Source: Phormidesmis priestleyi Ana
GTDB lineage: Bacteria > Cyanobacteriota > Cyanobacteriia > Phormidesmidales > Phormidesmidaceae
Length of the DNA: 64,000 nucleotides
Reading direction: 5' to 3'
NCBI GenBank assembly: GCA_001314865.1
Contig: LJZR01000006.1
Location: 62,001 to 126,000, forward strand
Position 1 is the first letter of the stretch, and every line of letters begins with the position of its first letter. This document shows, piece after piece, positions 38,902 to 40,586 of the stretch. The notes under the pieces were generated by a model. That model saw only the letters and a list, made by a program, of their open reading frames with translations, did no database searches and was not told the DNA's origin. The translations under genes and the position numbers were made by a program.

Positions 38902-40125
<1,224 letters not shown>

Positions 40126-40503
40126 TCAGAGAGAAATACTGAGCGTCACTGGCAGCACTCGACCACTGCCTCGATGGGCAACCTGTGCCTGCTTATGTTC
40201 AGAGGTTTGATCCGTAGGCTCACCCTCCACTCGACCGCTACCCCGATAGGCGACATCAAAGGCATCGCTCTGCTGAGTCGCAAAGTGCATGACAGAGGCG
40301 GCTGATTGATCCGGCGTTTGGGGTAAGCCGGACTGAATGCCGCTGTTGAACATGGCCAGATTCATAGCCGTTGAGGAAATAGCCGTTGAGGAAATAGCCG
40401 TTGAGGTGGAAGGGGTCGAAGGGGCGTAGACACAAGGCGCTGTACTGGTGGTGCAAAAAACGGCAAAGAGGCTGCCGAGCAAGTAATGATGAGAAGTCAG
40501 CAT
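40126..40503 (-). CDS. patX: PatX-like protein with two RGSGR peptides
   Basis: The 125-residue protein has a signal-like hydrophobic N-terminus (YLLGSLFAVFCTT; possible cleavage near VYA at 25-27). A low-complexity Ser/Thr linker follows, with a 15-nt-unit STAIS repeat (about 40360-40400). Two copies of the HetR-inhibiting pentapeptide come next: RGSGR at residues 87-91 (bases 40231-40245) and 111-115 (40159-40173). Each is framed as VAYRGSGRV or VAHRGSGRV. RGSGR is the active core of PatS, and PatX proteins combine an export signal with such a motif and lie near hetR in many filamentous cyanobacteria. This gene is on the same strand, immediately upstream of hetR. The second copy is followed by ten more residues (VLPVTLSISL), so the motif is not C-terminal. 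No ribosome site is obvious. Confidence 0.88.
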   Translation of the reverse strand: MLTSHHYLLGSLFAVFCTTSTAPCVYAPSTPSTSTAISSTAISSTAMNLAMFNSGIQSGLPQTPDQSAASVMHFATQQSDAFDVAYRGSGRVEGEPTDQTSEHKQAQVAHRGSGRVLPVTLSISL

Positions 40504-40586
40504 GGTTGCTAAGTGATTTCCAAGTCGTTACTTAGAGCTACGTTAATTCCGCGTAAGGTCAGGAAGGTCTATATGAAGAATTGACC

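Follow-up and report, generated by a model that had tools for sequence, protein, structure and literature searches.

A probable multi-unit PatX precursor upstream of hetR in Phormidesmis priestleyi Ana, and the variation of its motif number among relatives

Introduction

Why would a small gene next to hetR carry the pentapeptide RGSGR twice? The question is raised by the window analysed here, a stretch of 64,000 nt from Phormidesmis priestleyi Ana. PatX and HetR have been described as a pair that predates heterocysts in filamentous cyanobacteria (PMC7761841). No description of a PatX with several motifs was found in the literature searched; the founding paper (Elhai and Khudyakov 2018) lies outside that search, and an earlier mention is possible. 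Multi-unit precursors provide a natural copy-number series for how the output of a cell-to-cell signal evolves, and they reveal the units and flanks that selection maintains.

The patX gene and its locus

The features of the locus are collected in Table 1. An earlier note, made from the sequence alone, had described a PatX-like protein with an export-signal-like N-terminus, a Ser/Thr linker and two RGSGR motifs, encoded directly upstream of hetR, and this description held. Translation returned both motifs where the note had placed them, each in the frame VA[YH]RGSGRV. A hydrophobic stretch is present at the N-terminus, as judged by hydropathy alone (best 12-residue mean 1.91), and the linker is partly made of a 15-nt tandem repeat. 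The patX stop codon and the hetR ATG are separated by 300 nt, with both genes on the minus strand, a point absent from the note. Comparing the 27-nt blocks around the two motifs also reproduced its count: 5 of the 27 bases differ, 4 of them synonymously, and TAT/CAT is the sole residue change. Since the expected count of RGSGR is only 8e-5 in a random protein of PatX composition, the two copies are not due to chance. By its position, hydrophobic N-terminus, RGSGR motifs and putative upstream element we identify the gene as patX, and its product is probably a small, exported protein.

Table 1. Features of the patX-hetR locus, in coordinates of the window.
Feature	Position	Strand	Basis
patX, two-motif RGSGR precursor, 125 aa	40126..40503	minus	Open reading frame and translation; hetR-linked genes of like kind
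RGSGR copy 1, residues 87-91, Tyr before, Val after (VAYRGSGRV)	40231..40245	minus	Translation
RGSGR copy 2, residues 111-115, His before, Val after (VAHRGSGRV)	40159..40173	minus	Translation
Hydrophobic, export-like N-terminus, residues 1-27, ending VYA (putative cleavage site, placed by eye)	40423..40503	minus	Hydropathy
15-nt tandem repeat, 2.9 copies, encoding part of the Ser/Thr/Ala linker	40364..40406	minus	Tandem Repeats Finder
TCCTGA element, 55 nt ahead of the ATG of patX	40559..40564	minus	Sequence
hetR, 307 aa; peptide cleft with the substitutions D256N and D278N (numbered as in Anabaena)	38902..39825	minus	Pfam PF03574 and PF18460, PDB alignment, contact residues
Strong RNA hairpin spanning the stop codon of patX	40105..40143	minus	13-nt perfect arms; fold z -6.5

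The hairpin over the stop codon may limit read-through into hetR. The pattern of its arms is unique within this genome, and inspection of four congeners by eye did not reveal the hairpin. The HetR protein passes the cut-offs of both Pfam models in Table 1, and scores 462 bits against the NCBIfam equivalog NF009718, below the cut-off of 489.

Number of motifs across patX loci

Searching for relatives with the PatX protein gave mostly noise outside the motif, and relatives were therefore located by their hetR neighbourhoods, counting open reading frames with RG[ST]GR upstream. The genomes, 388 of the window's class, were sampled from a larger group, and hetR was found in 191 of them. The 165 hetR loci examined are among the better matches listed and lean towards HetRs like that of the window. 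The window's family, as grouped in the genome search, is called f1 below; for f1, the matches to hetR in G009 and G023 did not enter the set, and L219 was counted although its hetR piece contains a stop. A locus was regarded as cut when less than 1 kb upstream was available and no motif was seen (L004, L024, L105, L161, L208).

It was found that 40 of the 47 f1 hetR loci have an RG[ST]GR reading frame upstream, with one motif in 4 loci, two in 4, three in 18, four in 11, five in 1 and nine in 2 (G008 is one genome with nine). The other 7 comprise two second-copy hetR genes (G022, G012), four hetR paralogues and the cut locus of G006, whose two-motif patX (L032) lies on a separate contig end. 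Twelve additional f1 loci have 2, 3 or 5 motifs. Altogether, 49 of 53 f1 patX loci carry 2-9 motifs, and so do all 47 outside the window's genus. Within that genus, two motifs are found in 2 of 6 genomes (G000, G006) and one in the other 4, which hold all the single-motif genes of f1; in G005 the place of the second motif reads RGGGR. A seventh genome of the genus, G004, gave no hetR match.

Outside f1, 73 of the 74 loci with a motif have exactly one, and 44 further loci have no motif or are cut. These include families f32 and f22, in which no RG[ST]GR reading frame occurs within 1.5-1.7 kb upstream of hetR (25/25 and 4/4 loci, e.g. L074 and L019); their patX is presumably located elsewhere, and they were counted neither for nor against. 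The single exception, L176 (G196, another family), has eight RGSGR units in which YRGSGR and HRGSGR are mixed, an array that apparently expanded independently.

The earlier note had proposed counting RGSGR copies across relatives, and these counts bear on three of its statements. That PatX usually carries a single motif is true of the other sampled families and fails for f1. That two motifs are special to this gene, or a gain here, was not borne out, the window gene standing at the low end of its family. The note had also named an absent or decayed second motif in homologues as evidence against its proposal, and this is what we observe within the genus, with one motif in G001, G002 and G003 and RGGGR in G005.

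A HetR tree was built by a quick method from 89 of the 165 loci, taking every f1 locus, at most four from each other family, and L176. The canonical f1 HetRs cluster with an SH-aLRT of 89, which is under the star mark, and two rows of another family fall inside the cluster. Four changes between one and several motifs suffice on this tree.

The upstream element

The DIF1 element of PatX lies less than 70 nt upstream of the gene. We scanned the 200 nt upstream and the first 30 nt of each patX gene, and TCCTGA was found near 37 of 39 f1 genes and 73 of 74 others (110/113 in total), compared with 2.1 and 3.6 in shuffles. The window's genus has it in 5 of 6 genomes, with CCCTGA in G001. The DIF1 core reported for Anabaena is TCCGGA (PMC7761841), and that hexamer is not enriched in the same zone (2/39 and 3/74 vs 1.6 and 2.8 in shuffles). 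We infer that TCCTGA is the same promoter element as DIF1 with one base different.

Coverage by the PatX family model

The window gene scores 18.9 bits on the NCBIfam PatX model NF047413, below its cut-off of 30. Two sets of proteins were compared with the model. Set A1 has 40 proteins (35 multi-motif and 4 single-motif proteins of f1, and L176; L157, L032 and L206-L219 are not in it), and set A2 has 51 from the 73 one-motif loci outside f1. A score of E 9e-7, or about 30 bits, was attained by no protein of A1 and by 3 of A2. Because so few proteins of either set come to that score, NF047413 is a narrow model; and since it misses one-motif forms too, a score below the cut-off does not demonstrate a distinct family. 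The existing PatX family model misses the multi-unit precursors.

The HetR receptor in the window's genus

The reported contacts of HetR with ERGSGR are E253, E254, D256, D270 and D278, with R223 near the C-terminus of the peptide (PMC4649674). All six HetRs of the window's genus have Asn at D256 and D278 and keep the other four residues. Among other canonical HetRs, D278 is kept in 155/155 and D256 in 152/155, and twelve further f1 HetRs keep both; N278 also appears in 1 of 14 more distant HetR paralogues. Of 120 columns that are otherwise conserved, nine are changed in the genus HetR, all six genomes sharing these changes; ten other f1 genera, a number of them represented by a single genome, have 0-2. 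Two of the nine changed sites are contacts, a marginal over-representation (p 0.045). The substitutions D256A and D278A in HetR of Anabaena increase the Kd for PatS6 from 12 nM to 427 and 1626 nM, about 35- and 135-fold (PMC4649674). Asn at these two sites may keep hydrogen bonds that are lost with Ala.

These changes could mean that PatX of this genus no longer acts mainly via HetR, the pair decaying or serving another role. The nine shared changes, two of them at peptide contacts, and the loss of PatX units in the genus would fit such an account. In addition, transcriptomes of Leptolyngbya BL0902 were interpreted as HetR-independent effects of PatX, the effects of PatX on gene expression being judged basically independent of hetR (PMC11298460), a report that also counts against the explanation we prefer. 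Nevertheless, all six patX genes of the genus have at least one exact motif, R223, E253, E254 and D270 are intact throughout, and TCCTGA is kept in all but G001. On balance we consider this account unlikely.

The second canonical hetR copies, L118 in G022 and L128 in G012, have no RG[ST]GR reading frame in 1.7 kb upstream. Many f1 members also possess a second HetR of 40-50% identity (L202-L205, L218, L220-L232). No multi-motif precursor adjoins these genes, one RGSGR reading frame upstream of L220 is probably there by chance, and position E254 holds Val in 17 of 18. The second HetR was considered as the cause of several units and was rejected: the g3 genomes with 4-9 units have one HetR match each. 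Genome G000 holds a nifH over the curated cut-off (G000:C5:77121-77942, L233) and may fix nitrogen.

Conservation of the motif copies

In 37 multi-motif genes we counted 137 exact motifs and no motif with one mismatch. The 77 one-motif loci gave 77 exact and three one-mismatch motifs, one of which is the RGGGR of the window's genus. Within genes, 231 motif pairs differ on average by 2.7 synonymous and 0.2 non-synonymous changes, and 18 pairs are identical in DNA. Conservation between genomes was evaluated in three orthologue sets, namely 11 of the 25 g13 loci, 7 loci of g2, g9 and g12, and 4 of g3 with 4-9 motifs; L157, L159 and L177 (other or cut arrays), L173 and the g13 loci fetched later were left out. 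The core pN is 0, 0.013 and 0 in these sets, values that are partly due to the choice of sets with comparable arrays, and the core pS is 0.40, 0.67 and 0.53, while the spacer pN/pS is 0.57, 0.77 and 0.74.

How the units arise can be seen in part from their likeness. Because the units are alike in protein in L013, L076, L157, L177 and L211, we suggest that they multiply by tandem duplication. Some arrays have ragged ends, with YRGRS in L177 and YRGSP in L211, and L159 and L215, outside the window's genus, have two units compared to three in most of their genus.

The same observations could be accounted for by repeat slippage that made the extra motifs, with one unit working and the others dispensable. 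Besides the likeness of the units in these five loci, which in L013, L076 and L157 nearly extends to the DNA around the motif, there is the 15-nt linker repeat of the window gene; the second unit is gone or reads RGGGR within the genus, and L159 and L215 have fewer units than most of their genus. Dispensable copies are hard to reconcile with 137 exact motifs and no one-mismatch copy, or with core codons that change no amino acid (S/T aside) amid diverged spacers, even for sets chosen for comparable arrays. We regard slippage of this kind as rather unlikely.

The residues next to the motif were also compared. Those before it follow the order D, F, Y in 19 of 25 g13 loci and H, Y, H, Y in all 8 loci of g2, g9 and g12. 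In multi-motif proteins, 124 of 136 motifs are followed by I, V or L; in the one-motif loci, R (26), I (17) and the chain end (17) lead. The earlier note had considered that two different peptides might be released, and the order of the residues, conserved across species in other genera, speaks for this part of it. Two signals, YRGSGR and HRGSGR, for different receptors or steps would also be in keeping with the flank pN/pS of 0.06 for g13 (but the other two sets have 0.35 and 0.46), with the mixture of Y and H in L176 and with the second HetR of many f1 genomes, but the residue before RGSGR is reported to be irrelevant to the affinity of Anabaena HetR (PMC4649674), and the window's genome, like those of g3 with 4-9 units, has one HetR match, which makes this the least probable of the alternatives and a quite improbable one. 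Since residue X reportedly leaves that affinity unchanged, two doses of one message are likelier than two messages.

Discussion

We prefer, with a probability of roughly 0.7, the explanation that the window gene is patX and encodes a multi-copy ('polyprotein') precursor of a HetR inhibitor, that patX of f1 gained extra signal units early and has since changed in unit number (1-9) by tandem duplication and loss, and that the PatX-HetR couple has probably been retuned towards weaker binding in the window's genus. The multiplicity, the conservation of the motifs, the shared upstream element, the linkage to hetR and the changes in the cleft are directly visible in the sequences; the remaining steps are proposed as follows.

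Transcription of patX would start from the TCCTGA-type element just upstream. By likeness to Nostoc PatX, the protein would then be exported and cut, releasing XRGSGR units, and these would bind the hood cleft of HetR, which would thereupon leave DNA. In Nostoc, HRGTGR of PatX is reported to bind HetR at 88 nM, and a reporter is exported in E. coli by the PatX signal sequence, which inhibition in Nostoc requires (PMC12756182). An assay based on E. coli showed PatP cutting Nostoc PatX at a site 27 residues ahead of the motif (PMC12756182); as the reported cleavage is this far from the motif, we infer rather than observe the release of internal units.

In the window's genus, a reduction of the array to one or two units would have gone along with the loss of two acidic contacts from the peptide cleft of HetR. 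Fewer units together with D256N and D278N suggest a retuned couple rather than a doubled dose, and the altered cleft argues against simply stronger inhibition. On the other hand, the loss of copies and the change of the cleft amount to few events on one branch, and their link may be coincidental; the genus HetR is divergent overall, and units were lost outside the genus as well (L159, L215).

A wider version of this explanation is tentative, and we hold it at short of even odds: for f1, a family of filamentous cyanobacteria, a polyprotein morphogen precursor in which the number (1-9) and identity of the units evolve against cleft affinity in HetR, with many units and an intact cleft in most genera, and one or two units and a cleft neutralised by D256N and D278N in the window's genus. 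If true, this would be a lateral-inhibition circuit with inhibitor dose and receptor affinity co-evolving. Existing strains allow the question of dose to be tested, since PatX of Leptolyngbya BL0902 (L217, the gene ending 113 nt before hetR) has three units, and patX and hetR deletion strains of it are published (PMC11298460).

Comparison with known systems

The window gene resembles PatX of Nostoc/Anabaena (NF047413) in its small size, hydrophobic N-terminus, RG(S/T)GR motif, linkage to hetR and, putatively, TCC-GA-type upstream element. It differs in having two motifs instead of one, each followed by Val, and in its score below the NCBIfam cut-off. A secreted multi-copy peptide precursor is also known in the yeast alpha-factor, whose sequence, processing and host are unrelated to those of PatX. 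In the Rap-Phr systems (RRNPPA) a TPR-type receptor lies beside the propeptide, whereas the HetR neighbour of patX gave no TPR family match at E 0.1.

With PatS and HetN, compared by the pentapeptide alone, the window PatX shares the RGSGR core that binds the HetR hood cleft; both are described as likely cut in the cytoplasm, unlike PatX (PMC12756182). Tandemly duplicated Phr propeptides, with up to 8 copies, have been reported for Rap systems of Bacillota (PMC11343458), and therefore multi-copy bacterial signal precursors are not new in principle. Like the proposed PatX precursor, Phr is exported and has several units, identical or varied, which are matured by extracellular proteases (PMC11343458). 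Unlike PatX, it belongs to Bacillota and their phages and acts on the Rap receptor through an unrelated peptide, in quorum sensing rather than in the control of HetR.
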